The notes beneath the pieces are model-generated. The model saw only the letters and a program-made list of their open reading frames with translations, did no database searches and was not told the DNA's origin. Below are positions 4,299 through 22,003 of a DNA stretch of 64,000 nt, piece by piece (position 1 is the stretch's first letter; the number at the start of each line of letters is the position of its first letter). The stretch lies in assembly GCA_030645475.1 (NCBI GenBank), contig JAUSMA010000060.1, positions 1 to 64,000 of the forward strand, written 5' to 3'. Made by a program: the position numbers and the translations under genes. Source of the stretch: Nitrospirota bacterium (lineage in GTDB: Bacteria; Nitrospirota; Nitrospiria; Nitrospirales; Nitrospiraceae).

Positions 4299-6029
4299 CT
4301 ATGGTACGACCACGCCATCGGCTACACCCTTGGGCCCTTGAATGAGCATGGAGATCGAGTAGTCCAGCGTGGGAGAGCTTCCCCCGGAGAACATGTTGGA
4401 TGCCCAGCAATCCACCCAAAATCTCACATTCATGTGTGGCCGATCGGTACCGACATGGCTCTCCTCAAGGTACACGCCGCCATCTGTAAACTGGGGAAAG
4501 GATAAATAGACAAGGGGCGTCTGGCTCACGGTCCAGCCGTTTTTCAGCCGGGCGTTCAGAAAGATATGATCGTTTCCTACCGGACCCCAAAACATGAATG
4601 CATGCATACGGCGAACATAATACCCGTTTTGATTGAACACGGTCACACCATTGAATTGCTGGAGTTGCGATTCCGTCATCAGTTTGATCTCTCGGAGCTC
4701 CATCGCAGGATTGAAGCGGAAGGGGACGATATTACTGTTGACGCTACTCGCAGCCGACTTGACGTAGACTGTCCCATTGAAAGCGAGTACACCGGCTGCG
4801 TCCGGCACAGAGGTAAAGATCTGACCGTCGCTCCAGATCGCAGCGGCAGGTGCCACCAGGTCTTTTCCTGGCGCAATCACGAAATGGACCTCACCTCCAG
4901 CTCCAAACCCGCTCCCAGTGATCATGACCGGATCGCCAGGCTGCCCTTGCGTCACGTTCACCGACGCGATCACCGGATTCGGCGCCACGGGGGGTGACAG
5001 GAGAGCGCCTTTTAGCATTCTCTGGGGCATCTGCAGCGCGCGCGTGCCGATTTCGCCTTCCGTGGACGTGCCGGGCTCCGCGGACGTTCCCTCGCTTCCT
5101 TCAACGCCGCGCGAGCGGATCTGCCCACCCATGCGGCCCTGTAGTTGATCGAACTGAGGGCGAATCTGTGCGTGAAGTGCCGCGTGCCGATCCATCTGCC
5201 GGCGGTCGAACTGCGCCTTGTGCTGTTGGAAGGCTGCCTCCATTTTGGTGGCCGTTTGTGCGGCTGCTTGCTGCTGCTCTTGTTCTGTCGGTTCTTTCCG
5301 TGGCTTTGCCCTCGATCGGATGACCTGGTCCAGAGCTGCCTGATTCACCGGTGGATATTGAATGTTGATCATGCCATCGGCCCGGCCGCCCAGCTGCGGC
5401 GGCGCCGGCTGGGCGAGTCGGATCTGGACCCTCCAGAGCGGGCCACTCTGTACGTCCTGCGGCGTAACCATGTAGCTCAGGCGAATCGGTCCGGTACCCT
5501 GCTGGCTCATCGGCTGTGAAGCCAACCCCTGCAACGTCACAATCACCGGCGCGCCCTGGCTTTGGACCTCGACGACCACCGGCCCCGGCTGTGTGACCGC
5601 AAAGCCGAATGAGTCGACTTCCGGTCCCTTCACATCAAACTTCTGCGGATACGTTGGTAATTGCGCATTCGGCTGGCCCGGCGCGCCAGATTGTCCAGGA
5701 TTGCCAGGCAGTATTGGCCGCTGCAACTGCTGCATCCCGCGGCTCCCGATGTCATCGGCTTCGTCTGTCGCCATTCCCTGGGCGAGCGATCGTTTCTTGT
5801 CAGGCGGAAGAGATCCGCGGCTCTCGATCTCGCCAGACTGTTCCTCCACCGCCATCGCCCGTACCCTCGGACGAACCTCCGACTTGACTCCTCCCACTGC
5901 CTCCGATTCCTGGGACGGAATAGCCGAGTCGGCCTCCGCAGCGAACGTGACGGGATGTGACCAGGCGAATAGCGCGACGAATAGGCCCACCATACCAATG
6001 ATCGAAAGGCGTTGTGATTGTCGGGTCAT
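4299..6029 (-). CDS. Exported IPT/TIG-domain protein (copy 1)
   Basis: This 576-residue protein starts at an ATG behind AGGAG; the longer frame upstream runs back into the neighbour and is rejected. Residues 1-30 are a signal peptide (LFVALFAWSHPVTFAAE). The mature region has an Arg/Glu-rich segment with repeated ESRG and GSRG, a beta-rich domain (FGFAVTQPGPVVVEVQSQGA), a Gln-rich coiled region (EQEQQQAAAQ to MDRHAALHAQ), then an IPT/TIG Ig-like domain (VTQGQPGDPVMITGSGFGAG). A C-terminal domain of about 150 residues ends VADGVVVP. It is a tandem paralogue of the next gene, sharing order, linker and C-terminus. IPT/TIG folds usually bind proteins or polysaccharides at the surface. No catalytic residues are evident. 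Its place between Hcp- and caspase-encoding genes suggests a structural or docking role. Confidence 0.85.
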   Translation of the reverse strand: MTRQSQRLSIIGMVGLFVALFAWSHPVTFAAEADSAIPSQESEAVGGVKSEVRPRVRAMAVEEQSGEIESRGSLPPDKKRSLAQGMATDEADDIGSRGMQQLQRPILPGNPGQSGAPGQPNAQLPTYPQKFDVKGPEVDSFGFAVTQPGPVVVEVQSQGAPVIVTLQGLASQPMSQQGTGPIRLSYMVTPQDVQSGPLWRVQIRLAQPAPPQLGGRADGMINIQYPPVNQAALDQVIRSRAKPRKEPTEQEQQQAAAQTATKMEAAFQQHKAQFDRRQMDRHAALHAQIRPQFDQLQGRMGGQIRSRGVEGSEGTSAEPGTSTEGEIGTRALQMPQRMLKGALLSPPVAPNPVIASVNVTQGQPGDPVMITGSGFGAGGEVHFVIAPGKDLVAPAAAIWSDGQIFTSVPDAAGVLAFNGTVYVKSAASSVNSNIVPFRFNPAMELREIKLMTESQLQQFNGVTVFNQNGYYVRRMHAFMFWGPVGNDHIFLNARLKNGWTVSQTPLVYLSFPQFTDGGVYLEESHVGTDRPHMNVRFWVDCWASNMFSGGSSPTLDYSISMLIQGPKGVADGVVVP

Positions 6030-6070
6030 AAGAGACTCCTTGAGCAGATTGTTAATATTTCTCATATGTC

Positions 6071-7714
6071 CTACGGCACCACCACGCCGTCCGGCACACC
6101 TTTTGGACCAATGATTCGTACGACGTACGTGTAGAACGTGTACTTGTAGCCTCCGAAGGCGGCCGGAAGCCACCAGTGCACCTTGAGGTAAGGCGAATCG
6201 GTTCCGCGCCGGCTATCGATCGCGTATGCATTCCCGTCGCACTGGCCGTTGCCCCATGCCACCGCACAGGTCACCCCCACATCATCGACCAACCAGGCAT
6301 TCTTCAGACGGGTTGTAATGAACAACTCGTCATCGTCTTTAAATCCCCAGAAGGGGTTGCCGTTTCCATGAGCGATGGTCGTCGGGCGATAGGGTGAATC
6401 CTCATTGACCGGGAACTTCAGTCGCCGATCCGTGGTCCATCGCACCTCACGCAATTCCAGAGTGGGATTGAATCGCCACGGCACGAGATTCGTTTTTGCC
6501 TGATCCGATCCCCGCACTACGTACACAATCCCGCTGTAGGTGAGTACACCGGCAATGTCCGGCACCGTGACGAAAATTTGTGTATCCGTCCAAACCTGGA
6601 CCGGCGCGACGAGATCCTTGCCGGGATTTACGACGAAGTGCACCTCGCCGCCACCATTCGAAAAACCCGAGCCATTGATCAGAACCGGATCGCCCGGCTG
6701 TCCTTGCGTCACGCTGAGCGAGGCAATTGAGGGGTTCGGCATGACCGACTGGGGACCGGCTGTCGAGCCCACGCCTTGAATGGGCTGCGCAGAAGAGGCC
6801 GTCGCCGGTGGGACAATCGCCCCGAGTTTTTGCCCTGTCGTGGTATCCAAGGGCTGTTTCATGATGCCGATCATCTGATCTCCACGCAATGCGCGTGTGC
6901 CGATTTCTCCTTCCGGTGACGCACCGGCTTCCGCTGAAACCGGCTCACTCTCTTCAAGTCCTCTAGGGCGGATCTGTCCACCCATCCGGATTTGCAACTG
7001 ATCGAGCTGCGGTTGGATCTGCGCGTGAAGCGCGCCACGCCGATCGAGCTGCTGCCGGTCGAATTGAGCCTTGCGCTGTTGAAACGCTTGCTCCGTTTGC
7101 GCCGCGGCTTGCGCGGAGGCCTGTTGTTGTTCTTGTGGGCTCGGCTGCTTCTGCTGCGTCGCCATCGCTTGGACAGCCTGTTGAACCACCGCTTGATTCA
7201 CGGGTGGATGTTGCACCATGACGGCGCCATTCGCACGGCCTCCGAGCTGAGGAGGCGCTGGCTGCGCGAGTCTGATCTGTACACCCCAGAAGACACTCTT
7301 CTGGATATCTTGGGGTGTCACGGTGTAAGCCAGACGAACTTGTCCCGTTCCCTGCTGGCTGATCGGCTGTGGGGCTCCTCCCTGTAACGTCACGATCACT
7401 GGCGCGCCCTGGCTTTGCACCTCCACGACTACCGGCCCTGGCTGCGTGACGGCGAACCCGAACGAATCAGATTCCGGCCCTTGTACGTCGAACTTCTGTG
7501 GCCAAGTTGGCACTTGTGCAGTCGGCTGGCCCGGCGCACTGGGTTGCGCCGGATTACCCCGCATCATCGGCCGTTGCAGCTGCGGCATCCCGCGGCTCTC
7601 GACCTCGCCGGATGTATCCTCCGCTGCGAACGTGACCGGACTTGAGCAGGCGAACAGCGCGACGAATAGGCCCACACTGCTCATGATGGAAAAGCGATGT
7701 GATTGACGGGCCAT
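6071..7714 (-). CDS. Exported IPT/TIG-domain protein (copy 2)
   Basis: This 547-residue protein is a paralogue of copy 1, which starts 41 bases after its stop. The start ATG follows AAGGAGACTCTT, nearly the same leader as copy 1 (AAGGAGTCTCTT), so the duplication included the translation signal. Domain order is the same: signal peptide (LFVALFACSSPVTFAAE), ESRG motif, FGFAVTQPGPVVVEVQSQGA, Gln-rich helix (QEQQQASAQAAAQTE), GTRA motif, IPT/TIG domain (VTQGQPGDPVLINGSGFSNG), and a C-terminal domain ending PDGVVVP. Copy 2 lacks the extra N-terminal charged segment of copy 1 and has a longer linker before the TIG domain. The function is unknown; a surface binding or scaffold role is inferred. Confidence 0.85.
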   Translation of the reverse strand: MARQSHRFSIMSSVGLFVALFACSSPVTFAAEDTSGEVESRGMPQLQRPMMRGNPAQPSAPGQPTAQVPTWPQKFDVQGPESDSFGFAVTQPGPVVVEVQSQGAPVIVTLQGGAPQPISQQGTGQVRLAYTVTPQDIQKSVFWGVQIRLAQPAPPQLGGRANGAVMVQHPPVNQAVVQQAVQAMATQQKQPSPQEQQQASAQAAAQTEQAFQQRKAQFDRQQLDRRGALHAQIQPQLDQLQIRMGGQIRPRGLEESEPVSAEAGASPEGEIGTRALRGDQMIGIMKQPLDTTTGQKLGAIVPPATASSAQPIQGVGSTAGPQSVMPNPSIASLSVTQGQPGDPVLINGSGFSNGGGEVHFVVNPGKDLVAPVQVWTDTQIFVTVPDIAGVLTYSGIVYVVRGSDQAKTNLVPWRFNPTLELREVRWTTDRRLKFPVNEDSPYRPTTIAHGNGNPFWGFKDDDELFITTRLKNAWLVDDVGVTCAVAWGNGQCDGNAYAIDSRRGTDSPYLKVHWWLPAAFGGYKYTFYTYVVRIIGPKGVPDGVVVP

Positions 7715-7768
7715 AAGAGTCTCCTTGATCTGATTGTGAATGTGTCGCAATAGTTCGCTGTATTCCTT

Positions 7769-8605
7769 CTAGGGCATGGTGTACCCGATGGTTATGAGAT
7801 CCACCATCACGCTGGGGCTTTGAGGAGAGGGAACCGGTATTTTTGCTGGAACCAATGTGAGCCTGAGAAAGCGTCCCTGTCTTGCATCAACCGGGATCGC
7901 GAGATTGTTCATCCCCATTTTGCCGTACGTGCCCAACGTAAGACAGTCGCTCTCAAGCACAATGTCAATGAATCCACGGCCGTCTCCGACATAACCCCGA
8001 AACTCGGCAAGGAGATTCTGCTTGCCGCTCCTGTCGTGAACACCAATGCTGATTTCTCTGATGATCGCGCCATGAGGTAGATGCAGCTGGGTTTCTCCGA
8101 TCAGTTGAGATGGGGGAGGGTTCGCAGATTCCTGTGCGTAGACTTGGAGAATCGGAGCATTCATTTCAACATTTTCAGGAAACTGGGGTCTGTTCAGAGA
8201 CGTTCCTGGCCTCGATGCCATTGCAAAGGTGGTTGCATCCAATGTGAATTGCACCAGCGTATCTGCGGTGCGTCGAATGGCATCACTGACATGTATGGTT
8301 GAGGGCATAATCGTGTAGTAATGCGTTGACGGAACCGGCGAGGGAACGACAGCCGCGGTAAAGACAGATTTGACGCATGATGGCGGAGCCGGCGGCACAA
8401 GCGCGGTACCAAGCTGCTTAGGAGGCAGAATCGTCAGCGGAATTTGTATGCCCTGTCGTAGCATCGGCGCAGCCCGTGAGCCGACCTCTTCCGTCGGCGT
8501 TGCGTCTTGTGGTGCTCCCTCTTCCACAGCCCAGCCCAGACCGGGGCATGCAAGCATGCACAGCACGGCCAACCTCACCCTCCATTGCCATGTGCAGCTA
8601 CTCAT
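7769..8605 (-). CDS. Exported protein of unknown fold
   Basis: This 278-residue protein has a clear signal peptide (LAVLCMLACPGLGWAVE) and then an EVGSRAAPML segment matching the motif seen in its neighbours. The rest is beta-rich with few charges. The C-terminal half (LHLPHGAIIREISIGVHD to LITIGYTMP) is homologous to the truncated frame at 15087-15473, which has LPDGAMIREVAVLAYD and IRIGYTLQ at matching places. The gene lies between the WD40-caspase and TIG copy 2, with gaps of 69 and 54 bases, so co-transcription is likely. I do not recognise a named family. The paired GxxIREI and NLAIPV blocks define a small private family in this locus. Confidence 0.75.
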   Translation of the reverse strand: MSSCTWQWRVRLAVLCMLACPGLGWAVEEGAPQDATPTEEVGSRAAPMLRQGIQIPLTILPPKQLGTALVPPAPPSCVKSVFTAAVVPSPVPSTHYYTIMPSTIHVSDAIRRTADTLVQFTLDATTFAMASRPGTSLNRPQFPENVEMNAPILQVYAQESANPPPSQLIGETQLHLPHGAIIREISIGVHDRSGKQNLLAEFRGYVGDGRGFIDIVLESDCLTLGTYGKMGMNNLAIPVDARQGRFLRLTLVPAKIPVPSPQSPSVMVDLITIGYTMP

Positions 8606-8674
8606 AACAATCCTCCACCTACTCGTGTGTCGACCGGCTCCGGAAAAGGTTCAAAGCCTTGGGCGTATTTCCAA

Positions 8675-11600
8675 TCAATACACTGCAAAGTCGTATTCTA
8701 AGTTCTCCCGGCGGACGGTCGGGTTCTGGCCGCCTTCGGTCAGTTTCCTGACTTGATCGATCACATAGCTTTGCAACTCGCTGACCGTGATGGTCTGGTC
8801 CTTGTTCGTATCCGCCCCGCGGTTCTTCAGCCCGTTGAGGAGCGCGTAGGTGAATACGCCATTTTTCCATTGTTCGCCTTCAAGACTGTATTCGTTGCCA
8901 CTGGAGCTGGAGATGACCACCGCGCCGGTCCCGCGCCGCAGATCGGCAAACCAGTCCTGCTGGAATTTCACCATTTCATTGGAGAGGCGCGGTGCGCCTG
9001 TCTGGTTTGAGCCTGTTTCGCCGGTATCCGTCGTCACGCTGATGCCACGCGCCGCTTTGAACGAGCGCATCTTCACCGTCCCTGACCCGCCCGTCTCGGC
9101 CTGCGCCACGACGACGGCTTGATCCTTTTCAATTTCTCCGGAGAAACAGGTATCCAACAGCAGAACTTTCTGCAATGCGGGAATGCCGTCGAGGAGATTC
9201 TCGAAGTCTTCGTACGGCAGCCCATTTGTGGCCGGATGTTTGGGATCGATGTCGTGCGTACCGAAGTAGTAGTCGGATTTCTCGTCAGTCATGCCGTGGC
9301 CTGCGGCAAACACGACGACGAGATCGTTGATCTTCGATTGCTTGAGCCAGTCCTTCACTTTGCGGATTTCTGGTCTGGTCGCTTTCTGATTCGTGAGGTC
9401 CAGCAGATGTACCGTGCCCTTAATACCGGGGCGCTGTTCCACCGCTTTATAGGTATTCAGCAGATCGTTCGCATCTTTGGCTGCGTAGCGCAGGTTATAG
9501 GCCTTATCTTTGTACTCACTGACGCCGATGCCCACCACATAGACATCCGGCGCCGCCGCTTCCGCCGTTGATGTTGTGTAAACCGTCTCCCGCAATGATT
9601 CGGTTCCCTGCTGATTGAGAACTGAAATCTGAATCTTATTGCGGCCTGTCACGAGCGGCACCAGGATCTCCTGCTCCTGCGTCTTTGCCTGCCGGTCCGA
9701 AATCGGGATCCCCGTTGTTCCAAACACCGGAATATCGTTCACGAACACGTTGAACCGATCGAGGGCATATGTGCTGTCGTTCGCCCTCACGTGCAACGAC
9801 AGCGCAGCCTGATTGACGGATACCGGGACATCGCCGGTGAGGATTTGCAACTCGGGCAAATGAAAATCACTTCCCAGCATCTGCTCGGTGAGCCCCATTT
9901 TCTTGAGCCGCTTTTCATAGGCAAGGCGGTAGCTTTGGACGGCCTCAGGCGACGCCATGCCCAAGCGTGACAGCAGGATGTCCGGACGATTGAATCGCAA
10001 GTCGAACTGCTCAAACGGATACAGTTGGCCCTTGATGCGGAATGAGACGCCTTTGATACGGCTCTTCGACGCACGATAGTATTGATCCGGCGTGACCGCC
10101 ACGAAGTCTTCCTGTCCCAGTGCAATGAGAGAGACCCGTTCCTTCCCGGTTTGAAGGTCCCAGATCCGCATGGCGCCATCGCCGCCGCCGCTGATCAGCG
10201 ACTTCCCATCAGGCGCAAACGCCATCGATTTGATCGCTGCGGTATGTCCGATCAATTCCAGCCGGTCCTGTCCGGTCGCCACATCCCAGATCTTGATCAC
10301 TTCTCCATGGCCGCGAGCCGCCAAGCGTCCGTCAGGACTGAAGGCTGCGCCCATGCCGCCCAGATTGAATTCCATGTTACCCAGCAGGCTCATCGGATCG
10401 AACCCGGCTTCTCGCGGCGCTTTCGGTGGGCGAATCTTTTGTCCGGTGGCCACGTCCCACAGATCTTTTCCCTTTGCGCCATCGCCTAGGAGCAACCGAC
10501 CGTCGGCGCTGAATGCCAGACTGTTTGCGCCGCCTCCCATCTGCTCGCTCGCCATATCCAGAAAGTCAGAAGGATCCTGCATCATCATGACGGGAGGGGT
10601 GCTCGGCGCATCGCCAAATCCAAACAGTGAACCGAGTCCGCTGCCTCGACTCGGCATTCCTGGAAAGCCTCCCTGAGCCAATAACGCCTGGAGATCTCCT
10701 CCCTTCGGCATCCCTCTGCCTCCTGAAGTCAGTGATGTATTCTCCGCACCACCGATCTTTCGAATCAGCTGGCCGGTCTGCAGATCCCAGAGGCTCACCT
10801 CATGCTGTTTCCCGACCGCAACCATGTTTCCCTTCGGGTGAACGGCAATGGTCTGGACCCAGTGTGACATCTCCTCCACCTTTTCAAGAGTCTGGGGATC
10901 CATCGTCGGCTGTTCTGAGGCGCGTTCCTCCATCATGGTTTTGAGTTTAGGATCCATTCCCTCATAGGCGGCAGCCGGATTGGCCATCATGCCGAGAGCT
11001 TTGGGTTGTGGGCCATGAGGAATTGCGATACGTCGCAATTCCTTCCCCGTCGCCGCCTCCCAGATTGCCAACTGATCGCGGACTGCCGTAATCACTCGTT
11101 TGCCGTCTGGTGTGAAGCGGACGGCCGTCAGGACAAACTCTCCAGCCGGTAGCGGCGGCATCAGGCTGCGGATTTGCCGACCGGTACTCATCTCCCACAA
11201 CCAGACCGATCCATCCATACAGCCGGTTGCGAGGACTGCCGTGGCATCGTTCATTGCAACCGATCGGACACCCGTTCCTCCCGGGCAATCGAAGGACCGA
11301 GCGATTTGGCCGGTTGTCAGGTCCCAGTATTTGGCGCTCCCACCTTCCATGGCCGCCACCAAGGTTCGGCCATGCGGAGCCATCGCCAAATCCGAGACTC
11401 CGCTGACTCCGCCGGCCAGTCTGGTTTCCTTCCCGCTCGACAGGTCACGCAAAAACGGCGCGCCTCCACTCTCCGACGCCAGCACAAGTTGCGTGCCGTC
11501 CCGGCTGAAATTGATGGCACTCGATTTCATCGTCGTCTGAACCAGCCCGCCCGGAATCTCGATCAGTTTCGTCGTCCCATCGGCTGTGGCGAATGCAAGC

Positions 11601-12604
11601 CGTTTCCCGTCAGGACTGAAGACCAGACTATTCGTCATGCCGCTCATGGCCGATGTGCCGGTGGGAATCGTCTGAACCGGCTTCCCAGTATCCAGGTCGG
11701 AAAGGATGAGGCTCCGCGTCGTCATATCTTCCCGAACAAACCAACGGCCATCCGGGCTGATTTTCCCCACTGCGCCCTCGGCCATCTTGATCGGCCATTT
11801 CTTGCGAAGCTTCTTGGCCGGAAGATCCCACAGCAGCAATTCGTACTGCATCGACGGTAACGCGGGTGTTCCAAACCCGAAGAAGGAGCCGATCGACGTG
11901 GGCATGCTGGTGTCGACCTTTGATGTTAAGAGAATTTTTCCGTCGGGACTGAGCGCGACAGGATTCTGCGAGTCCGCATCAGGAAGCGTCCACAGAATCT
12001 GGCCGGTCGCAAGGTCGATCACCTTCAGGGAGCGCTGGCCCGGGGACATTGTCACGCCATGATCGTGCGCCACGGCGAGTCGCCCGTCAGCGCTGACCGT
12101 CCCGCCGACCGACAACCCAGATCCCACCGTCCGTACTTCGCGGCCCGACGCCACCTCAACGACTTTGATCCCGTTCCCCATCTCAGCAGTAATGATTCGT
12201 GTGCTATCCGGACTGAAGGCAAGCGTATCGCTACCCAGCATGCCGAAGCCCGTCAGGGTCCGGACCTCCTGGCCGCTAGCGACATCCCAAATTTTCACAG
12301 TGGCATCCTGCCCGGATGAGGCGATGTACCGTCCGTTCGGACTGAGCGCGAGGGTGCGTATACCGCTGGCGTGGCCGGTTTGAAAGACCACCTGGACACC
12401 GTCTTTACTGATCTGTGCTTCTCTTTTTGGGCCCTTGCCCATCATACGATTGGTCATTTCCTGGATGTCTGCGTCGGAAGGCTGTCTGTATTCTGGTATC
12501 GAGGGTCCCGCAAACATGGAAATCACCCCGCATCCACTTGGGAGGCATGCGAGCAGAGTCAGCCACATCGCCAAATGCCGTTGTGGTTGATGTGATCGTG
12601 TCAT
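8675..12604 (-). CDS. WD40-repeat caspase-like (peptidase C14) lipoprotein
   Basis: This 1309-residue protein starts with a lipoprotein signal (LACLPSGC, Cys at about 25). Residues about 60-850 carry many WD40 blades, recognisable from repeated SPDGR, IWD and LWDLATGQ-type strings with a Gly/Met-rich insertion. A linker domain (about 870-1010) leads to a caspase-like domain. That domain begins PDVYVVGIGVSEYKD and has the catalytic His in FAAGHGM and the catalytic Cys in LLLDTCFSGE. A closing helical segment with DTNKDQTITVSELQ resembles an EF-hand-like loop and sits near the C-terminus. WD40-caspase fusions are known among bacterial orthocaspases, which cleave after Arg or Lys. The lipoprotein signal places this one outside the cytosol. 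The gene is first in the minus-strand run leading to Hcp and VgrG and diverges from the TIG lipoprotein at 12877. Confidence 0.9.
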   Translation of the reverse strand: MTRSHQPQRHLAMWLTLLACLPSGCGVISMFAGPSIPEYRQPSDADIQEMTNRMMGKGPKREAQISKDGVQVVFQTGHASGIRTLALSPNGRYIASSGQDATVKIWDVASGQEVRTLTGFGMLGSDTLAFSPDSTRIITAEMGNGIKVVEVASGREVRTVGSGLSVGGTVSADGRLAVAHDHGVTMSPGQRSLKVIDLATGQILWTLPDADSQNPVALSPDGKILLTSKVDTSMPTSIGSFFGFGTPALPSMQYELLLWDLPAKKLRKKWPIKMAEGAVGKISPDGRWFVREDMTTRSLILSDLDTGKPVQTIPTGTSAMSGMTNSLVFSPDGKRLAFATADGTTKLIEIPGGLVQTTMKSSAINFSRDGTQLVLASESGGAPFLRDLSSGKETRLAGGVSGVSDLAMAPHGRTLVAAMEGGSAKYWDLTTGQIARSFDCPGGTGVRSVAMNDATAVLATGCMDGSVWLWEMSTGRQIRSLMPPLPAGEFVLTAVRFTPDGKRVITAVRDQLAIWEAATGKELRRIAIPHGPQPKALGMMANPAAAYEGMDPKLKTMMEERASEQPTMDPQTLEKVEEMSHWVQTIAVHPKGNMVAVGKQHEVSLWDLQTGQLIRKIGGAENTSLTSGGRGMPKGGDLQALLAQGGFPGMPSRGSGLGSLFGFGDAPSTPPVMMMQDPSDFLDMASEQMGGGANSLAFSADGRLLLGDGAKGKDLWDVATGQKIRPPKAPREAGFDPMSLLGNMEFNLGGMGAAFSPDGRLAARGHGEVIKIWDVATGQDRLELIGHTAAIKSMAFAPDGKSLISGGGDGAMRIWDLQTGKERVSLIALGQEDFVAVTPDQYYRASKSRIKGVSFRIKGQLYPFEQFDLRFNRPDILLSRLGMASPEAVQSYRLAYEKRLKKMGLTEQMLGSDFHLPELQILTGDVPVSVNQAALSLHVRANDSTYALDRFNVFVNDIPVFGTTGIPISDRQAKTQEQEILVPLVTGRNKIQISVLNQQGTESLRETVYTTSTAEAAAPDVYVVGIGVSEYKDKAYNLRYAAKDANDLLNTYKAVEQRPGIKGTVHLLDLTNQKATRPEIRKVKDWLKQSKINDLVVVFAAGHGMTDEKSDYYFGTHDIDPKHPATNGLPYEDFENLLDGIPALQKVLLLDTCFSGEIEKDQAVVVAQAETGGSGTVKMRSFKAARGISVTTDTGETGSNQTGAPRLSNEMVKFQQDWFADLRRGTGAVVISSSSGNEYSLEGEQWKNGVFTYALLNGLKNRGADTNKDQTITVSELQSYVIDQVRKLTEGGQNPTVRRENLEYDFAVY

Positions 12605-12876
12605 ATCAGCGGTCTCCTTCGGTCAGCAGCGGAGTCCAAGGTTCGGCGGGGAGGGAAGTATAACATGTGGCCAATAGAGTGGACAGATGCTTGACTGTCA
12701 GTCGCGGGAAGGGCAGGGATGGTTCACAGATTATGATTCCACTGGATTGACAGGTTCTAGGGGGTGACCTACACTCGCACGGTTTTGAACGTCTGGAACC
12801 GATGAGACGACAGACTTCGCAGGTGGCCGATTGTGGCCGCGAGCTACTGGGTATGTTCAACGATGAGGAGGCAGGT
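12605..12876. promoter_or_regulatory. Divergent intergenic region, WD40-caspase / TIG lipoprotein
   Basis: These 272 bases separate two genes transcribed away from each other, so both promoters should be here. The right end carries GAGGAGG about 8 bases before the ATG at 12877, a strong ribosome site. I could not identify a convincing -35/-10 pair or an ECF-type box by eye. Confidence 0.5.
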
Positions 12877-14865
12877 ATGAGAAGCGTGGGAAGGGGATTC
12901 GCTCTTGTGATGCTACTGTGGGTGGCCGGTTGCGCGACGCCGCAGCAGGATGCCAGTCAGGCCGACGATGCGACCATCGTCACTCTTCCGCAAGCCGTGC
13001 ACTTTCAGACGCTGGAGGGGGCCGATCTGGTTGTGGAGGCGGGCACCTATCATGTGGAACGTGCTGCCCAGGATGGACTCACGCTGAAGGCCTTGGATGC
13101 CACAGGCATGGCCACTGTCAAAACCGGCCAGACGACCCACGACTTCAAGCTGCGCGGTCCCTTAGCGTTGGTCGCTCCGGAAGGGGATGACACCCGCCAC
13201 ATTGCGCTGTTATTCCCGAGCGGAGAGGCCCTGGACGCTTCCGGTTCGCTCAGTGGAGTCCAGTCCCGCGCCGCATCGTCGACTATGATCTCTCGCATGA
13301 CATTACAGCAATCAGTGCAGGTGCTGAGGCCAACTCAACTCACGTTGTTCACGATGCCCCCTCCAGACCCCTGTGCCGGGGCCATTCCTCCGCTTCCCGC
13401 GCCGGCTCCAGCCCCAAGGAATCTTCCTCAGATCACTCCAGGCCAAGGCCCCATTCCCGATGTCGTCGATTGGCAGCCAAAGCAAAAATCTCCTGCTGGA
13501 GGCGAGTTGATTGTTCAGGGGCGCAACTTCGATCCGGCCGGGTTGGTCGCCATCGTCGGATCGACGCGACTCCTCCCCACCACAAAGTCGGCCTCGGAAG
13601 CACGATTTACGATTCCGACGTCCCTTCGTGCGTTCAATGCTCCTTTGGTGGTCTATCAGCAGGGCGGGACGCCGCGCACGATCGAAACGAACTACGAGGT
13701 CTTTGACCCGATTCCCAGAATTACACGCGTGGTGCCGGAAACGTTCAGTCACGGCGATCTGGTCACCATTTGCGGCGTCAGTGTCTCCCACATCGACCTC
13801 TTGAACTCCGTCGGGACAGGCTGGTCAGGCAATACGCACCTATCGGAAACCAGAAAAATGCTTCGTATCGGTGCGAACCCTCAGCGCTTCCCCAATTCGC
13901 CGTCTCGCTTGGTCGAGACGCTGAATCCGATCGGTTCTCCATCCGGCGACCGTTTAACCTTTGTTGCCGGCTCTCTCTATAAGGACTACATGGATCTTGG
14001 CTCCAATCCAAATGACAACATCTTTGCCATGACTATCGTCAAAGATACAGCGCCTTCAGCCACAGTGACCGCGCCATTTCAATTCCGGTCGGAAGCCAGC
14101 AGTTCAATAACTCTTGACTTGCAGTCACCAAGCCCTGTGACCTGGCGTTTGGGGGGACCTAAGATCGTGAAGGTCGGGATCCATCCCAACGCCCAATTTG
14201 GTGTCAGTGAGCCGTTCCTTATCCAACCGACGATTCTTCCGAATAATGCTCCCTATGCAGGGTACGGAGTCGGACGCTACTTTGTCGTGGAGGGCTACAA
14301 CTTGCAAGGGCAATATCGCCTTGGGAACTTGCCTCTTTCTCAATTGTCCATCCTCTCAAATGATTACACGAAAATCGGCGTGAGCCCTCCTCCCACCGCG
14401 ATAAGCGGCCCGCTCTGTGGGACGAGTAACGGTATCACCACCTGCACGCCACAACCATTAGTGATCGTGCCGGGCCCGGTCCTCGCGACCATACCACCGG
14501 CTCCCTTGGCCTTGCGCGTCACCCACACCATCAACGGATTGCACCTTCGCCCCTCGGGTGTCGCCGGCCTCACCTACGAGCTCTACGTGTCGGGCCTGAT
14601 GGATCCTTCGCAACAAATCGCCGGTGGATCCGCGCCCACTATCGGTCAATGCAACATGGCGCTTCAGGTGCTGGAGCATACGGACTCCCGCATCCAGTTC
14701 CGCTTCGGTGATCCGGCTGGTCCTGCTCCCAACAGCAGCTGTATGACTTTTCTCGCCAACTATTTCAACGCCGCCTCTCCTTCCCGACCGACGATGTTCC
14801 TGCTGGGAAAATACAGCGGCAAGCAATTGACCGTCTGGCATCAGCAATTCCACCTGACCCAGTAG
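12877..14865 (+). CDS. IPT/TIG-domain lipoprotein
   Basis: This 662-residue protein starts at an ATG behind GAGGAGG; an in-frame ATG at 12802 is upstream but lacks that signal. Residues 1-22 form a lipoprotein signal with the lipobox VAGC. A beta-rich N-terminal domain is followed by a Pro-rich linker (residues about 170-215). Two Ig-like segments come next, including SPAGGELIVQGRNFDPAG (TIG type) and a second beginning ITRVVPETFSHGDLVTICG. The C-terminal 350 residues are beta-rich and unassigned. A VQSRAASS string near residue 130 resembles the motif in its neighbours. It stands alone on the plus strand between the caspase and DUF4384 blocks and ends at a strong terminator. A surface-anchored binding protein is the likely role. 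Confidence 0.82.
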   Translation: MRSVGRGFALVMLLWVAGCATPQQDASQADDATIVTLPQAVHFQTLEGADLVVEAGTYHVERAAQDGLTLKALDATGMATVKTGQTTHDFKLRGPLALVAPEGDDTRHIALLFPSGEALDASGSLSGVQSRAASSTMISRMTLQQSVQVLRPTQLTLFTMPPPDPCAGAIPPLPAPAPAPRNLPQITPGQGPIPDVVDWQPKQKSPAGGELIVQGRNFDPAGLVAIVGSTRLLPTTKSASEARFTIPTSLRAFNAPLVVYQQGGTPRTIETNYEVFDPIPRITRVVPETFSHGDLVTICGVSVSHIDLLNSVGTGWSGNTHLSETRKMLRIGANPQRFPNSPSRLVETLNPIGSPSGDRLTFVAGSLYKDYMDLGSNPNDNIFAMTIVKDTAPSATVTAPFQFRSEASSSITLDLQSPSPVTWRLGGPKIVKVGIHPNAQFGVSEPFLIQPTILPNNAPYAGYGVGRYFVVEGYNLQGQYRLGNLPLSQLSILSNDYTKIGVSPPPTAISGPLCGTSNGITTCTPQPLVIVPGPVLATIPPAPLALRVTHTINGLHLRPSGVAGLTYELYVSGLMDPSQQIAGGSAPTIGQCNMALQVLEHTDSRIQFRFGDPAGPAPNSSCMTFLANYFNAASPSRPTMFLLGKYSGKQLTVWHQQFHLTQ

Positions 14866-14888
14866 GGGGCTATCGGGCGAACCGTTTA

Positions 14889-14919
14889 GGGCCCGCGGCA
14901 GGATTCCTGCCGCGGGCCC
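14889..14919 (+). terminator. Rho-independent terminator after the TIG lipoprotein gene
   Basis: A 31-base perfect palindrome (GGGCCCGCGGCAGGA and its complement around one T) lies 23 bases after the stop codon and is followed by GCTCATTTT. The stem is long and GC-rich. It could also act on the opposite strand, but the T-run favours the plus strand. Confidence 0.85.
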
Positions 14920-15086
14920 GCTCATTTTGATGACCGTGAAAGGTCATGTTTTCTTACTAATAAGGCATGCAGACTTCTGAATACATCCTCGAAACTGCCT
15001 GGCAGGACAGTCTATGGATAAGTGGCCCCACTAGTTTCTAGGCGCGGGATATGTGAACGGGGAGATTAGGCTGGGCTGCGGCGAAA

Positions 15087-15473
15087 CTATTGCAGGGTAT
15101 ACCCAATCCGGATCGGACTGATCGTATGGCCTGGGGTCGGTTTGGCCATCATGAAGACATACAACAGATAGCCCATGTCGCGGTTGACGACGGGAATGGC
15201 CAAGTTGCTTGCGGCGACGAGTGTGCTCCCGAACCTTGAGGCGCACTCACTTCTCATATCGTTGACGTCGATGAGAGAGTCACCAGGCGGTTGGGATTCC
15301 ATGGTGGTCGATCCCAAACTCAGTCTGTGGCCCAGAAGCCCAATCTGTATGTCCTCGTCAATGACATCGTAAGCCAAAACTGCGACTTCACGGATCATAG
15401 CACCGTCCGGCAGTTGCACCGTCGCGGCCAATCTTGTGGCATAGGTGCCCGACGGCGCAGTCAACGTGAGCAT
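15087..15473 (-). pseudogene. Truncated paralogue of the exported protein at 7769-8605
   Basis: The 128 residues from the first ATG align by eye with the C-terminal half of the 278-residue exported protein: LPDGAMIREVAVLAYD, ASNLAIPV and a final IRIGYTLQ. The frame is open for 13 more codons upstream (IAVDEHSNVLGT) and then meets a TAG near 15514. No signal peptide and no ribosome site are present, although the full-length relative is exported. I read it as the remnant of a gene that has lost its 5' half. A short cytosolic product cannot be excluded. It lies 114 bases downstream of the proline-rich exported protein gene on the same strand. Confidence 0.6.
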
Positions 15474-15586
15474 CGTCCCCAGAACGTTGCTGTGCTCGTC
15501 GACGGCGATCGGCTAATCGACGCGCCCGTATGTGTTTTCATATTCTCGAGCAACAGGCTGCTTGCCTAAGGGCTCACGCCCATCCG

Positions 15587-16489: not shown

Positions 16490-16508
16490 ATCAATATCCC
16501 TCTCTCAC

Positions 16509-18248
16509 TTATTCGTGTTTAAACCAGCGGGTGACGGTCACATCTTGTCCTGGCTGACCGGCCATATAGGAGAGCGGAGTCACTTGTGTGGCGGTGCCGG
16601 TGTCGTCTTTCACAGTGATTATTCCCCGAGTTTTCGTCGCACCTACCCCTCGTGGAATGACTGGCGGTTCTTCGACTTTCGCCACGATGGTGCTCGTGGG
16701 GCGTGTTTCAGCCGCCATCTTCGCCATGCTCTCTTCCAGGTCTGTTCGTCGATTCGCCGAGGCGACGACATAAAATGTTTCAATTCCCTTTACCTGATCG
16801 AGGCTGAACCAGTAGGGTCCTTCTGGAAACGCCACTTCTTGGTCCTTTTTCACCGGGTTTGCCGTCGTGCCAGCTTTGGCGGGGAAGACCGGTTCCGCCC
16901 AAGCTGATCCATCGATTGAGACGATGTAGACATAACAGTCGCAGCTTGTGCGTATCACCAGCTTGAACTTGTCTCCGGCGTCTTTTTTCCCACCACCGTC
17001 GGTGAGTACGTCGCCATCGTTCATTAAAACCACTTCTTTGTCTTTGGCTGTTTGTTTCTGACGAATCAGCGCCACATCGATGGCCACTGGTTCAGCAGGC
17101 ACTCCACGAGGATAGATTCCAGCCCCTCCGTTGGGTTGTCCCCCGTACGGCTGAGGTTGCCCAGCTGCCCCATATCCCTGCTGCTGCTGCTGTTGTTGTG
17201 GTGGAGCTCCGTACGGCGATGGAGTGCCATATCCAGGCTGCGCTTGTCCGTACCCAGATTGTGCCTGGCCGTATCCTGGCTGTGTCTGGCCATATCCAGG
17301 CTGCGCTTGACCGTAGCCTGGTTGCGTTGCTGCGCCAGCCCCATAGGGATTGTTCGGATCGTAACCAGCCTGTGGCAGAGACGCCGCTCCTCCATACGGA
17401 TTGGCCTGACCTGGCTGAGCAGGCATTCCAGTGTTTCCATACGGATTTTGTGTGCCATAGGGATTCGGCGTTCCGTACGGTTGATTGGTCGAACCATAGG
17501 GATTCTGTTGGCCCGGCTGAGTTTGATACCCACTGTTGCCATAGGGATTTTGCGATCCGTAAGGATTTTGAGCGGCAGCAGGGTTTGGAGATTGTCCGTA
17601 CGGCGATGGTGTTCCATAGGGAGAGGCTGGCTGTCCGTATGGATTTTGGGTGCCGGCTCCATAGGGATTGTTCGGGTCGTAGGCGCCGGCTTGTCCAGGG
17701 TACGTCTGCTGCCCGGGATATTGTTGTTGGGGCATGCCCGGTTGTCCGCCATAGCCCGGGGCTGCTCCATAGGGATTGGCCTGTGCGCCGCCTGGATAGG
17801 TCATAGCGCCAGGGTTCTGGGCGCCGGCTCCATAGGGATTATTCGGATCGTAGGCGCCGGCTTGTCCAGGGTAGGTTTGTGGCCCGGGATATTGTAGTTG
17901 GGGCATGCCCGGCTGTCCTTGAGGCGCTGGTTGCCCGGGAAAACCAGGCTGGCCTTGAAATCCCGGTTGGCCTTGAGGCCCCAGTTGACCCTGCATGCCT
18001 GGCCCTGCCGGAAGGCCCTGCATATAGGGACTGGCCATGCGATTCACGAGATTGCTGAGGTTGTCGCGATGCTTGGAACCGTAATTGGACAGACCGGTTT
18101 GGAAGAGATTTTTGGCAAACTCAAAGGCTATTGGGACGAGGAACGGCGCGGCTGCGCAGGAGCTGAGGAGCAGGGTGCCCGCCAGAGCCATGCTGACTCC
18201 CTGTTGATAGACTCTGTACGGCCTCATCCATCTGTATCGCATCATCAT
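16509..18248 (-). CDS. Repeat-rich lipoprotein with DUF4384-like C-terminus
   Basis: This 579-residue protein has a lipobox-like end to its signal segment ([10 protein letters not shown]). A short helical part follows, then a low-complexity region of about 280 residues built from NPYG, QPGYGQ and PGQPG units, including the recurring [10 protein letters not shown]. The C-terminal 190 residues form a DUF4384-like domain ([29 protein letters not shown], then [17 protein letters not shown]). A KTRGIITV string follows near residue 550. DUF4384 is often fused to kinases or caspases in bacterial envelope proteins. The caspase at 19760-22003 carries a related segment. Divergence from the ECF sigma gene, 179 bases away, suggests that this gene is a regulatory target. 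The Tyr/Gly/Pro-rich stalk probably extends from the membrane. Confidence 0.83.
17220..17890 (-). repeat. NPYG / QPGYGQ coding repeat tract
   Basis: Within the DUF4384 lipoprotein gene the DNA repeats in short units, seen on the plus strand as CCATAGGGATT, TCCGTACGGAT and CATATCCAGGCTG variants. They encode NPYG and QPGYGQ repeats. Units are degenerate and of variable spacing and lack CRISPR-like spacers. The tract is a candidate for length variation between strains. Confidence 0.8.
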
Positions 18249-18427
18249 TGATCTCCGTGCTCTTGTCCCGTAGGTCGAGGCGAGTCGTCGGAAGGTTCAT
18301 GGGCATTGTAGACTGGCCTGAAAGGAGGGTCAATCAAACCTCGTCCTATTGAGGGGCCGGGACAAATGTGTTAGAGCAAGGGCGCGATTCGGTCCTGCTC
18401 CTGTCTCCACATTGAACGAATGGCGCT
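18249..18427. promoter_or_regulatory. Divergent intergenic region, DUF4384 lipoprotein / ECF sigma factor
   Basis: The 179 bases between two diverging genes should hold both promoters. If the sigma factor is autoregulated, as ECF factors commonly are, its target box should be here. No box could be assigned confidently by reading alone. Confidence 0.45.
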
Positions 18428-19006
18428 ATGGACGCGACTCACTGGCACGATGTCTCAGACCCCGATCTTCTGGCCGCAGTGGCGGGCCGTGACGCCGCAG
18501 CGTTTGAACGCCTCTATCAACTCTACGAGAAACGCGTCTATCAATATGTCTGTACCCTGGTCTACGACCCCACGCTGGCAGAAGAAGTGGTGGGGGATGC
18601 CATGATGGCAGTATGGCGTGGTGCCGGAAGCTTTTCCCGTTCTTCGCGTGTGTCGACTTGGATTTTCGGGATTGCGCGGCACAAGGCCTTGGATGCGCTC
18701 AGGCGAACAGGGCGCCATTATCATGATGTGACGTTGGATGAGGCGCTCGAATTGCCGAATGCTCAAGAAAGTCCTGCGGAGTCGGTCAATCGGAAGCAAG
18801 TGACTTCGTTAACGCAGTTGGCCTTGCAGACACTCTCGCTAGAGCATCAGGAGGTGCTTCGTCTCGTGTTTTATGAAGAGCTGCCGTATGAAGAGATTGC
18901 GGAGCTGCTGTCGATCCCGACCAATACGGTGAAAACCCGTGTGTATTATGCCAAGCAGCGTCTCAAACATCATCTTCAGCAACTTGCCCAGGATGAGCGA
19001 GTCTAA
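18428..19006 (+). CDS. ECF-type RNA polymerase sigma factor
   Basis: This 192-residue protein has the two-domain ECF layout. Region 2 (about residues 20-90) includes FERLYQLYEKRVYQYVCTLV and RVSTWIFGIARHKALDALR. Region 4 (about 130-185) includes LSLEHQEVLRLVFYEELPYE and the helix-turn-helix IAELLSIPTNTVKTRVYYAK. Region 3 is absent, as expected. The stop codon is followed directly by the ATG of the anti-sigma gene, with no gap. The regulon is not visible, but the divergent DUF4384 lipoprotein and the downstream caspase are the obvious candidates. An in-frame ATG that would extend the protein is not present, so the start is secure. Confidence 0.93.
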   Translation: MDATHWHDVSDPDLLAAVAGRDAAAFERLYQLYEKRVYQYVCTLVYDPTLAEEVVGDAMMAVWRGAGSFSRSSRVSTWIFGIARHKALDALRRTGRHYHDVTLDEALELPNAQESPAESVNRKQVTSLTQLALQTLSLEHQEVLRLVFYEELPYEEIAELLSIPTNTVKTRVYYAKQRLKHHLQQLAQDERV

Positions 19007-19675
19007 ATGGTAGAACCAGATACACAGGATCATTCCATCCATGCTGAGGGCGCCCTCTTACCATGGTACTTGAACGGCACCCTCCGGGAGGATGAACGCC
19101 GTCACGTTGACCAGCATCTTTCGTCCTGTGCGGCCTGTCGTGCGGAGCTGGAGGAATTGGCTCAGCTAAATGTGCAGTTGCATGAGGTCTATGCGGCGCA
19201 GTCTGAACCTTCGCCCAGGATTCAACTGGCTGTGCTTGCACAGGTCCAGCGCGAGGCCTCCGAGAAGGGCGCCAAGCCTGTGACCGGTTCAGCGTGGCTG
19301 GACGGGCTGGATGCTTGGTTCCGGTCTCTCTTTATTCCTCGATGGGCCCCCGCGCTTGCGGTGACGTTGCTCGTGGCTCAACTGGGATTGCTTCTGTGGA
19401 GCATGACCCTGCCGACTCTTTCTGATCAGGTGACGATCAGAGGGATTGGCGCTCCAACGGTCAGGCTGCGTGTGGTATTCCAGGAAACGGCATCAGAGCG
19501 ACAGATTCGTGTGCTCGTCCAAGGGGTGCATGGCAGAATCGTGGATGGGCCGGCTCTGGATGGCGCCTATATAATGGAGGTTCCAGCCGGGGACCGGGCC
19601 GCCACACAGAAAAAGGTTGACGCCCTGCGTAGCCAGACGGAGAGTATTCGTACGGTTGATCCGATGACACCGTGA
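19007..19675 (+). CDS. Zinc-finger anti-sigma factor, single membrane span
   Basis: This 222-residue protein carries the anti-sigma zinc-finger motif in its N-terminal domain (HVDQHLSSCAACRAEL, the HxxxCxxC pattern). A membrane helix follows at about residues 103-125 (WAPALAVTLLVAQLGLLLW), then a C-terminal domain of about 90 residues that would face the periplasm (VRLRVVFQETASERQIRVLV). It should hold the sigma factor inactive at the membrane until a signal from outside releases it. The gene directly abuts the sigma gene and is followed by the exported caspase. The caspase could process its outer domain, but nothing in the sequence proves that. Confidence 0.9.
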   Translation: MVEPDTQDHSIHAEGALLPWYLNGTLREDERRHVDQHLSSCAACRAELEELAQLNVQLHEVYAAQSEPSPRIQLAVLAQVQREASEKGAKPVTGSAWLDGLDAWFRSLFIPRWAPALAVTLLVAQLGLLLWSMTLPTLSDQVTIRGIGAPTVRLRVVFQETASERQIRVLVQGVHGRIVDGPALDGAYIMEVPAGDRAATQKKVDALRSQTESIRTVDPMTP

Positions 19676-19759
19676 ACCTGAGGAAGCCTGCCCGCGACTG
19701 ACCTATAGATGAGGAATGCTGGACGCCCGCATTTCCCGAGATCCCGTAGACGAAAGGCG

Positions 19760-22003
19760 ATGCTGATGAGAATCTCAATCTGGCCGCAACTGAGTGCAGG
19801 CATTCTATGCGCGATCCTGGGTCCCATTGGAGACAGCTGGGTATTGGCGCAATCCGCTGCGACAGACAGTGGTCCCGGTGTCAAACGCGCGCTGCTGGTT
19901 GGCATCAATAAATATCAAGCCGTACCGAAGCTCCAGGGCTCGATCAATGACATTGAGACCATGCGGCAGATTCTGCTGACGCGTTGGGGATTTCCGGAGC
20001 GAAATGTCGGCATCCTCAAGGACGAAGCCGCGACGCGTGCCGGTATTCTAGCCGCATTGGAACAGCTAGTGAAGGAGACGGGGCCACAGGATACCGTGTA
20101 TTTCCATTTTTCTGGCCATGGGTCCCAGGTGGAGGATTTGAACGGCGATGAAGAGGACGGCCTCGACGAGACCCTTGTTCCGCAAGATGGGCGTTCGGGA
20201 GATGTGCGGGATATCACGGATGATGAGTTAGATGCCGTGTTTGCCAGATTGCGCGCAAAGAACGCCTTCATTGTCTTGGACTCGTGCCACTCCGGTACGG
20301 CGACTCGCTCGCTGGATATCCGCACACGATCGATTCCTCGAGATAACCGGGTCGATATCTACCGGAAGGCCGATCAGGCATCCGTCAAAACACGAGCGGT
20401 GATTCCTGTCGTCACGTCTCGGTATGTGGTCATGAGCGGCGCCGCGTCCAATCAGGAAGCCCTCGATGGTCCGGTTGACGGACGCTACCATGGCTTCTTC
20501 ACGTTTGCCTTGGCGCGGAGCCTGAGCGCGGCTGGAGCAGGGGCGACACCCCGCGACATTTTCGGCGGAGTCGAACGGGAGCTGAAACGCATTCAGACAC
20601 ATTTCGGCCGCTCGTCCATGCCGGAACCGCAATTGGAAGCGCCGCCTGATCTTCTGGAGAAAACCCTGTTCGGTGCGACGAGTGGCGGAACAGGTGTTGC
20701 CTCGCAGAGTCAGGCTTCTCGATTGCCCTGGCTGGAGGTGCAGCCAGGCGTCGGCGGGCAAGTGACACTCGTGAGCGGGGTGCTACTCGGTGCCGGACCC
20801 GGATCGATGTGGACCTTGTATCCGCCGGGGGAGATCAATTTTCTACCTGGAAGAGCGCTCGCGGTCGCAACGGTGACACAGACATCCGGAAAGGATTCAC
20901 TCGCCAAGCTGCAGAAAGCTGACAGTACGATTCCAAAGGGTGCTCGAGCGGTGGCGCTACTGCCAGCCGCACACGGAGAGAAAATTCCCATCAGGATTGT
21001 CGACGTGCCTCAGGAACGTCGCAAACATATCGAGGACATCCTCAAGCGAAACATCGCCGAGGTTGAGCTGGTGGGGCAGGAGAAGACCGCTCGATTCCTG
21101 GTCGATAGCCAGGGAAGCGACCTGCGCCTCCTTGCGGCCGACGGACTGGAGGTGGTGGCGTCATTTTCGACGCTCGACGATCAATGGGGAGCCGGTCTGG
21201 CCCTGGTGGTCTCTCGCTCAGCGAATGCATCGGAATTGCTGACGCTGGATAATCCTTCCACCCAATTGAAAATGAACGTCAGGGTCGTGAATGCAGTAGC
21301 GCAGAAGACATCAGTCGGTACCCGTGGCATCGCTGTCGTGGCAGGGAATACGAAGCCGGCGCAGTATCGCATTCGACGGCCGAAAGAGACGCGGTCCGAG
21401 AAGAACAGTTTGCAATTGGAAGTCAGCGTGAGTGCCGATTCATACGTGACGATTGTGGATGTCGACTCAGAAGGCGGCGTCAATCTTCTGTTTCCCAATA
21501 ATTATCAGCAGCCCAGTTTTGTCACGGACGGCTTTGTCCGCGCTGGAGAGGCCGTCTTGATTCCTGACTCGCTCAAACCCGGTAATCGTGCCGGCTTCTA
21601 CTGGGACTACACCCCGCCGAAAGGCACGGATACCATTCGCGTCTTCACCAGTACGGATGTCCAGACCGCTCAGATGCTCCGTCAGCGAGTGCAGACGCTT
21701 CAGGCCGCGGCGGGTCGCACCAGTGGCGGGGTGAAGACTCGCGGGGTCGCAGCCGGCATCGGCAGCATCCGTCAGGATCTGGCCACCATCGCCACGAGGG
21801 GTATTGTGACCGTGTACGATCCGACCTCGCATGTGCCCGGCACTTCAATCGCCGATCAGCCTGAGCCCCCCCCATCAGTGATGCCCGCGCCTGCAGATCC
21901 TGTTGCGTTGACGCCGCCGATGCCTTCAAGCGAGCCGGTCCTGCCGACCGCACCAGCGGCTGATTGGGCTGCGACCTCGGTCACGATTCTTGTGGAAGGG
22001 TGA
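19760..22003 (+). CDS. Exported caspase-like (peptidase C14) protein with DUF4384-like C-terminus
   Basis: This is about 747 residues from the ATG at 19760 (a second ATG at 19766 is better spaced from AAAGG; a longer frame from 19709 is less likely). A hydrophobic segment (LSAGILCAILGPIGDSWVLAQ) acts as signal peptide. The caspase domain follows (RALLVGINKYQAV), with the catalytic His in YFHFSGHGSQ and the catalytic Cys in FIVLDSCHSGTATR, and an acidic Asp-rich loop (LNGDEEDGLDETL). A middle domain of unknown fold leads to a DUF4384-like segment (SLQLEVSVSADSYVTIVDVD). The C-terminus is Pro-rich. Three TRG strings lie at DNA 21314, 21731 and 21791, flanking the DUF4384-like part, and are possible self-cleavage sites. 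The gene starts 84 bases after the anti-sigma gene. Confidence 0.9.
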   Translation: MLMRISIWPQLSAGILCAILGPIGDSWVLAQSAATDSGPGVKRALLVGINKYQAVPKLQGSINDIETMRQILLTRWGFPERNVGILKDEAATRAGILAALEQLVKETGPQDTVYFHFSGHGSQVEDLNGDEEDGLDETLVPQDGRSGDVRDITDDELDAVFARLRAKNAFIVLDSCHSGTATRSLDIRTRSIPRDNRVDIYRKADQASVKTRAVIPVVTSRYVVMSGAASNQEALDGPVDGRYHGFFTFALARSLSAAGAGATPRDIFGGVERELKRIQTHFGRSSMPEPQLEAPPDLLEKTLFGATSGGTGVASQSQASRLPWLEVQPGVGGQVTLVSGVLLGAGPGSMWTLYPPGEINFLPGRALAVATVTQTSGKDSLAKLQKADSTIPKGARAVALLPAAHGEKIPIRIVDVPQERRKHIEDILKRNIAEVELVGQEKTARFLVDSQGSDLRLLAADGLEVVASFSTLDDQWGAGLALVVSRSANASELLTLDNPSTQLKMNVRVVNAVAQKTSVGTRGIAVVAGNTKPAQYRIRRPKETRSEKNSLQLEVSVSADSYVTIVDVDSEGGVNLLFPNNYQQPSFVTDGFVRAGEAVLIPDSLKPGNRAGFYWDYTPPKGTDTIRVFTSTDVQTAQMLRQRVQTLQAAAGRTSGGVKTRGVAAGIGSIRQDLATIATRGIVTVYDPTSHVPGTSIADQPEPPPSVMPAPADPVALTPPMPSSEPVLPTAPAADWAATSVTILVEG

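Follow-up and report, generated by a model that had tools for sequence, protein, structure and literature searches.

Bacterial orthocaspases are usually discussed in connection with cell death, and to our knowledge few of their natural substrates are known. The characterised metacaspases and orthocaspases cleave exclusively after Arg or Lys, and caspases of peptidase family C14 process themselves between p20 and p10 (PMC5756287). In site-1 proteolysis of the DegS-RseA type, an extracytoplasmic cut of a membrane anti-sigma factor begins its destruction, and in Craspase (Csx29-Csx30-CASP-sigma) a caspase-like protease cuts a sigma-factor inhibitor, freeing a sigma factor of the extracytoplasmic function (ECF) type (both PMC10028731). 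A protease, an anti-sigma factor and an ECF sigma factor form one module in CalpL/T/S (PMC11417357), and operons that pair a metacaspase with a sigma-70 factor have been on record since 2012 in Myxococcus, Anaeromyxobacter, Haliangium, Sorangium, Ralstonia and Fibrobacter (PMC3501461). Here we describe a locus in 64,000 nucleotides of Nitrospirota DNA (assembly GCA_030645475.1, contig JAUSMA010000060.1, positions 1 to 64,000; hereafter the window), in which an exported caspase, the anti-sigma factor encoded next to it and several exported proteins share a short arginine-centred motif.

The genome of the window belongs to the Nitrospira group (3.7 Mb, 71 contigs, six C14 domains/caspase genes), and the closest named relatives bearing the caspase were Nitrospirae/Nitrospirota metagenome bins (97% and 88% protein identity). 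Besides the 764-aa caspase, which also carries DUF4384, and its neighbours, an ECF sigma factor and a zf-HC2 anti-sigma factor, the locus encodes three lipoproteins (a WD40-caspase, a TIG protein whose N-terminal domain is new, and one with DUF4384) as well as two TIG paralogues and exported proteins of 278 and 300 aa. A first-pass annotation had pointed to recurring [S/T]-R-[G/A] strings in the exported proteins, and the strings it named were all present and in frame, within about 15 bases of where it had placed them. The short string is part of a longer motif, [V/I]-x-[S/T/P]-R-[G/A/S], in which P4 is V/I and P1 is Arg. Based on sequence comparison, we put at roughly 0.6 the probability that these strings are cleavage sites of an exported Arg-specific metacaspase-like protease, with the predicted consensus [V/I](P4)-x-[S/T/P](P2)-R(P1) and the cut ahead of [G/A/S](P1'). 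The earlier idea that the caspases of the locus could process these proteins and themselves was supported in part, by the catalytic pair of the caspase, by its acidic residues of the kind expected for Arg/Lys specificity and by a motif copy within the linker at which C14 caspases process themselves; it fell short in that the motif had been drawn too short and the anti-sigma factor, the most informative of the candidate substrates, had been missed. Two sites were absent from the earlier list, VKTRA in the p20/p10 linker of the caspase and VTIRG in the anti-sigma factor, the latter protein having gone unlisted because its copy in the window reads VTIRG.

The counts of conservation among homologues are stronger evidence than the enrichment p-values. 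Of the outcomes that would have spoken against the earlier idea, two were examined and neither was seen: the motif exceeded composition, and the arginine was conserved, in the caspase linker (30/30), in the anti-sigma factor (26/26), as Arg/Lys behind a new beta domain (85/87) and at three TIG sites (7/7). The caspase is laid out as a signal-peptide-like N-terminus, a C14 caspase domain, a middle region, DUF4384 and a proline-rich tail. Its closest solved relatives by sequence were type I metacaspases (yeast Mca1, E = 5e-26), and its membership in family C14 is seen in a caspase domain with both catalytic residues (GHG and DSC[HN]SG are kept in aligned relatives); Cys193 was invariant, and the His retained, in 11 aligned relatives. 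Asp81 and the Asp two residues before Cys193, aligned with Mca1, were invariant in 30 relatives. By comparison with trypanosome MCA2, these two residues would line the Arg-binding (S1) pocket. The caspase and its four motif copies are placed as follows.

19709-22003, plus strand: exported caspase, 764 aa, the proposed protease (Pfam Peptidase_C14 4e-26, DUF4384 7e-17).
20384-20398, plus strand: caspase site A, VKTRA (Arg229), p20/p10 linker; Arg in 30/30 relatives, mostly as VxTR[AGQ].
21314-21328, plus strand: caspase site B, VGTRG (Arg539), before DUF4384; RG in 29/30 relatives, the single exception (G167) being a truncated open reading frame (ORF).
21731-21745, plus strand: caspase site C, VKTRG (Arg678), after DUF4384; present in roughly half of the relatives and altered or absent in the others.
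21788-21802, plus strand: caspase site D, IATRG (Arg697), where the tail begins; RG in every relative reaching the region.

At sites B and D the P2' residue was hydrophobic. A further string, ATRA at caspase residue 109, lies within the catalytic domain and is probably structural, and was dropped as a site. The very end of the caspase (window 21962-22000), DWAATSVTILVEG, is strongly conserved behind the variable proline-rich tail and includes a predicted strand. A search of a plasmid collection found no full-length relative.

The anti-sigma factor has one membrane helix (approximately residues 117-135). Its gene adjoins the ECF sigma factor gene and, in every neighbourhood read, the long caspase gene, which in the window lies directly downstream.

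18428-19006, plus strand: ECF sigma factor (Sigma70_r2 and r4), adjoining the caspase in relatives.
19007-19675, plus strand: zf-HC2 membrane anti-sigma factor, the proposed regulatory substrate (Pfam zf-HC2 3e-7; NCBIfam anti-sigma factor match below its cut-off).
19430-19444, plus strand: anti-sigma site VTIRG (Arg145), just outside the membrane helix.

The site lies about 10-20 residues past the helix, and in all 26 relatives covering it P4 was V/I, P1 Arg, P1' Gly/Ser/Ala and P2' Ile/Leu/Val. Among 19 non-redundant sequences the Arg was the sole invariant position of the linker, where the mean share of the commonest residue past the helix was 0.51. Judging from its place in the sequence, this Arg is predicted to be where a site-1 protease would cut. 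As a control, other zf-HC2 anti-sigma proteins were considered; most matches in relatives lacked a membrane helix and two had a helix without the motif (L246, L247), a number too small to make the control a firm one. In the anti-sigma factor of the locus, the extracytoplasmic part (window 19430-19672) forms a small domain with an invariant Gly181-Pro182 in an [IV]xxGP...Y stretch and without a Pfam match; this domain may sense a signal or bind the protease.

A third, unrelated setting of the motif was the end of a beta domain at the N-terminus of the TIG lipoprotein.

12802-14865, plus strand: TIG lipoprotein with a new N-terminal beta domain, without a Pfam or NCBIfam match.
12943-13248, plus strand: the new beta domain, about 100 aa; all-beta model, core pLDDT about 90.
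13258-13272, plus strand: VQSRA directly 3' of the beta domain; Arg/Lys in 85/87 distinct family members.

Even with E as high as 0.1 the domain had no match in Pfam, nor had the whole protein in NCBIfam, and a fold search gave no convincing match (best E = 0.04, TM 0.22). It was found in 60 ORFs (64 domains) within the neighbourhoods examined, and these ORFs look exported because a hydrophobic stretch precedes the domain in 59/60. The family shares the C-terminal consensus G-S-x-S-G-[VI]-[RQ]-[SPT]-R-[GA]. Among 87 distinct tails, 77 fitted a fixed pattern with Arg/Lys at P1 (76 Arg, 1 Lys), and eight of the remaining 10 had Arg at the position when read by eye, which brings the basic residue to 85/87. 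Information content dropped steeply after P1', conservation being gone by P2', in a count that required Arg at P1 (1/62 tails failed). In the structural model the final strand stops at fragment residue 105, and the invariant Arg112 lies beyond the folded part. Elsewhere in the window, a gene at 15087-15586 is a remnant whose 5' part, including the beta domain, is missing; its counterparts in G009 and G012 encode a 360-362 aa protein with a beta domain and GI[QH]SRG. Two more clusters of beta-domain and motif-bearing exported proteins stand beside other caspase genes of the same genome (L074 and L089; C60 at about 224-235 kb and C68 at about 14-25 kb), and the caspase neighbourhoods on C33 and C61 (L165, L166) carried almost no motif copies.

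The two TIG proteins are paralogues with shared sites, located in the window as listed here.

4299-6029, minus strand: TIG protein 1 (TIG1), five strict motif copies.
5814-5828, minus strand: TIG1 site IESRG.
5736-5750, minus strand: TIG1 N-terminal site IGSRG; [VI][EG]SRG aligned in 7/7 homologues.
5307-5321, minus strand: TIG1 site IRSRA, lost in most homologues.
5106-5120, minus strand: TIG1 first middle site IRSRG; [IV]R[PS]R[GS] in 7/7 homologues.
5037-5051, minus strand: TIG1 second middle site IGTRA; EIGTRA identical in 7/7 homologues.
6071-7714, minus strand: TIG protein 2 (TIG2; Pfam TIG 3e-4).
7589-7603, minus strand: TIG2 site VESRG.
6959-6973, minus strand: TIG2 site IRPRG, relaxed motif (P2 = Pro).
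6890-6904, minus strand: TIG2 site IGTRA.

The three sites retained in the seven homologues, which span two genera, lie after the signal peptide ([VI][EG]SRG) and mid-protein (the other two). The linker ahead of the first site varies among homologues by tens of residues (large indels), with the site still aligned. Several TIG copies in G002 and G032 have the first site shortly behind a lipobox-like sequence, and a cut there would release the protein from its anchor.

Motif frequency was evaluated with the strict form [VI]x[ST]R[GA], relaxed forms admitting Pro at P2, and the background was drawn from the same genome (354 genes, 115,850 aa), in 18 stretches of 20 kb and the remainder of the window. 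Taken singly, two proteins had more copies of the short motif than composition predicts, TIG1 (5 copies vs 0.73 expected, reached in 0/1000 shuffles) and the caspase (5 vs 1.56, p = 0.012). In the other four (TIG2, the 278-aa protein and the TIG and DUF4384 lipoproteins), [ST]R[GA] was not above composition in shuffles. Pooled, and with the longer motif, an excess was evident: the non-caspase locus proteins had 9 strict copies in 4,821 aa vs 17 in the background (12.7-fold, p = 4e-7) and the caspase had 4 (36-fold, p = 1e-5), p-values that are somewhat optimistic because it was the locus itself that had suggested the longer motif. Shuffled non-caspase locus proteins gave a mean of 0.63 strict copies (maximum 4). 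The signal came from the flanks: among [ST]R[GA] sites, P4 was V/I at 9/11 in the non-caspase locus proteins (p = 2e-6) and at 4/5 in the caspase vs 12.6% of 135 in the background. When P1 was swapped through all 20 residues, Arg alone was enriched (13 vs 0.63 expected), every other residue giving at most 3.

The contexts of the motif in the locus were EIESRG, DIGSRG, QIRSRG, EIGTRA, EVESRG, EVGSRA, GVQSRA, SVKTRA, SVGTRG, GVKTRG and TIATRG. They occur in mutually unrelated settings, namely the linker and domain borders of the caspase, the anti-sigma factor, the end of the beta domain and the TIG linkers. A scoring matrix trained on the anti-sigma sites only picked caspase sites D, B and C, as well as the PRG sites of the DUF4384 lipoprotein, and ranked the TIG1 and beta-domain sites low because their P1' and P2' differ from those of the anti-sigma sites. 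At the genome scale, a DNA search for [DE][VI]x[ST]R[GA] returned 171 matches, and 135 when the pattern was reversed as a control; it was too degenerate for listing substrates.

In an order-wide set of 236 genomes, with the long caspase scored at E up to 1e-40, the caspase was found in 32 genomes, the beta domain in 38 and both in 26. By genus, all 10 beta-domain genera fell within the 11 caspase genera (p = 3e-8). In nine genomes, 48 of 58 beta domains were at most 20 kb from a caspase gene, vs about 2.6 expected, with contigs lacking a known caspase scored as far. One apparent exception to co-occurrence was G002, where the caspase is possibly just off the contig end because the contig stops inside the orthologous anti-sigma gene.

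Several points weigh against the cleavage reading. The by-genome value for its co-occurrence with the beta domain (p = 6e-20) ignores kinship. Moreover, 12 genomes had the beta domain without a detected long caspase (some assemblies are incomplete, and other caspases are present), and 6 had the long caspase without the beta domain. Since beta-domain clusters adjoin different caspases, the enzyme for each cluster is unsure. Position P2 is loose, being Ile in the anti-sigma factor of the window and Glu in several relatives. Finally, sites A-D all fall in segments of the caspase model with pLDDT <50 (31% of the residues of the chain), but the model is of low confidence (pLDDT 60), so the apparently disordered position of the sites is weak support.

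Taken together, these patterns suggest a tentative scheme, for which we would give somewhat less than even odds, in which the exported caspase serves its own anti-sigma factor as site-1 protease. In this scheme it would also cut a set of surface proteins found across the lineage, all by way of one tag, [V/I]-x-[S/T]-R followed by [G/A], that ends a new domain family, the outcome being envelope signalling and shedding. On the preferred cleavage reading, the caspase would mature by a cut in its own p20/p10 linker (site A) and could be trimmed at its domain borders (sites B, C and D). Upon an envelope signal it would cut the anti-sigma factor after Arg145, outside the membrane helix; release of the ECF sigma factor would then fall to a site-2 protease, and the freed factor could drive the operon and perhaps the substrate genes as well. 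This caspase, or a sister enzyme near each cluster, may cut exported beta-domain and TIG proteins at the motif, and the cut would detach them from an N-terminal domain or a lipid anchor.

The motif could instead be a cleavage site for some other protease, either another caspase (the WD40-caspase, or those by the other clusters) or an Arg-specific envelope protease of non-caspase type. The genome offers candidates with its six C14 domains, each beta-domain cluster lies near a different caspase gene, and the 12 genomes with the beta domain and no detected long caspase fit such an enzyme; nevertheless, we consider it unlikely, given that the anti-sigma gene adjoins the long caspase wherever read and that the motif stands within the long caspase's own linker. 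A second alternative is that the motif is an element for docking, an extended V-x-S-R-G-hydrophobic beta-strand bound by a partner such as a DUF4384 domain and left uncleaved. It would explain the hydrophobic P2' that the anti-sigma factor shares with caspase sites B and D, which goes beyond the needs of a cleavage site, and such strings do flank DUF4384. Against it, conservation in the beta-domain family is gone by P2', the single change from Arg to Lys is consistent with P1 specificity, and one copy sits in the p20/p10 linker of the caspase, where C14 enzymes process themselves; docking without cleavage appears quite improbable.

Paralogy combined with composition, that is, a few duplicated linkers and otherwise chance, draws on the common sites of the paralogous TIG1 and TIG2 and on the fact that, apart from TIG1 and the caspase, single proteins were within the shuffle range for the short motif. 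It is already disfavoured and seems very improbable, since the same P4-P1' pattern appears without detectable homology between the anti-sigma factor, the caspase linker, the beta-domain family and TIG, and the enrichment persists when TIG2 is left out (22.6-fold, p = 1.6e-7). Cleavage by an exported Arg-specific metacaspase-like protease is hence the reading that we prefer.

The remaining features of the locus are placed as follows.

7769-8605, minus strand: 278-aa exported protein, without a Pfam match.
8471-8485, minus strand: site VGSRA of the 278-aa protein, kept in relatives G009 and G012.
8675-12604, minus strand: WD40-caspase lipoprotein, the second candidate protease at the locus (Peptidase_C14 1.6e-13; GHG and DTCFSG retain the His and Cys).
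16509-18248, minus strand: DUF4384 lipoprotein.
17103-17117 and 16647-16661, minus strand: relaxed sites IYPRG and VIPRG of the DUF4384 lipoprotein, flanking its DUF4384.
16623-16637, minus strand: KTRG of the DUF4384 lipoprotein.

When scanned for the strict motif, the WD40-caspase lipoprotein had no copies. The KTRG string, which the first-pass annotation had counted among the sites, does not fit the longer motif and is conserved only within the genus, and was dropped as evidence. The other sites of the DUF4384 lipoprotein are poorly kept outside the genus and can be regarded as weak candidates. Near the start of the window, 245-2149 on the minus strand encodes a VgrG-like protein (Phage_GPD 2e-64, Phage_base_V 1e-15) with a signal-peptide-like start, which is unusual among type VI spike proteins.

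From sequence comparison come a precise, testable site consensus, more than 100 candidate substrates across the order and a specific proposed role in sigma-factor activation. If true, a caspase relative would gain a role in envelope signalling, and its defined tag would lend itself to assays on short peptides. A literature search, scant on subscription papers and preprints, found no co-mention of 'orthocaspase' and 'sigma factor', a weak sign of novelty. The underlying kinds, a C14 protease and anti-sigma factor proteolysis, are already known, and the combination proposed here is a variant of them. The caspase resembles type I metacaspases and orthocaspases (yeast Mca1, trypanosome MCA2, Microcystis MaOC1) in its caspase domain, Cys/His pair, acidic residues and basic p20/p10 linker residue; unlike them, it has a signal-peptide-like N-terminus, DUF4384 and a tail, and the substrates predicted for it, an anti-sigma factor and a number of exported proteins, have one encoded tag in common. 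The metacaspase/sigma-70 operons of 2012 likewise place protease and sigma factor in one operon, whereas the section consulted describes no cleavage motif, anti-sigma site or substrate family for them (PMC3501461). Craspase uses a cytoplasmic RNA-guided CHAT protease and a soluble inhibitor, in contrast to the exported C14 enzyme and membrane anti-sigma factor proposed here; none of its parts (Cas7-11/gRAMP, TPR-CHAT, CRISPR) was among the locus proteins scanned, and the locus caspases carry C14 with DUF4384 or WD40. CalpL/T/S is the same type of three-part module and differs by its Lon-type protease, which is activated by cyclic oligoadenylate. With respect to DegS-RseA, the predicted site-1 enzyme here is a caspase relative, and its tag is found also on many other exported proteins.

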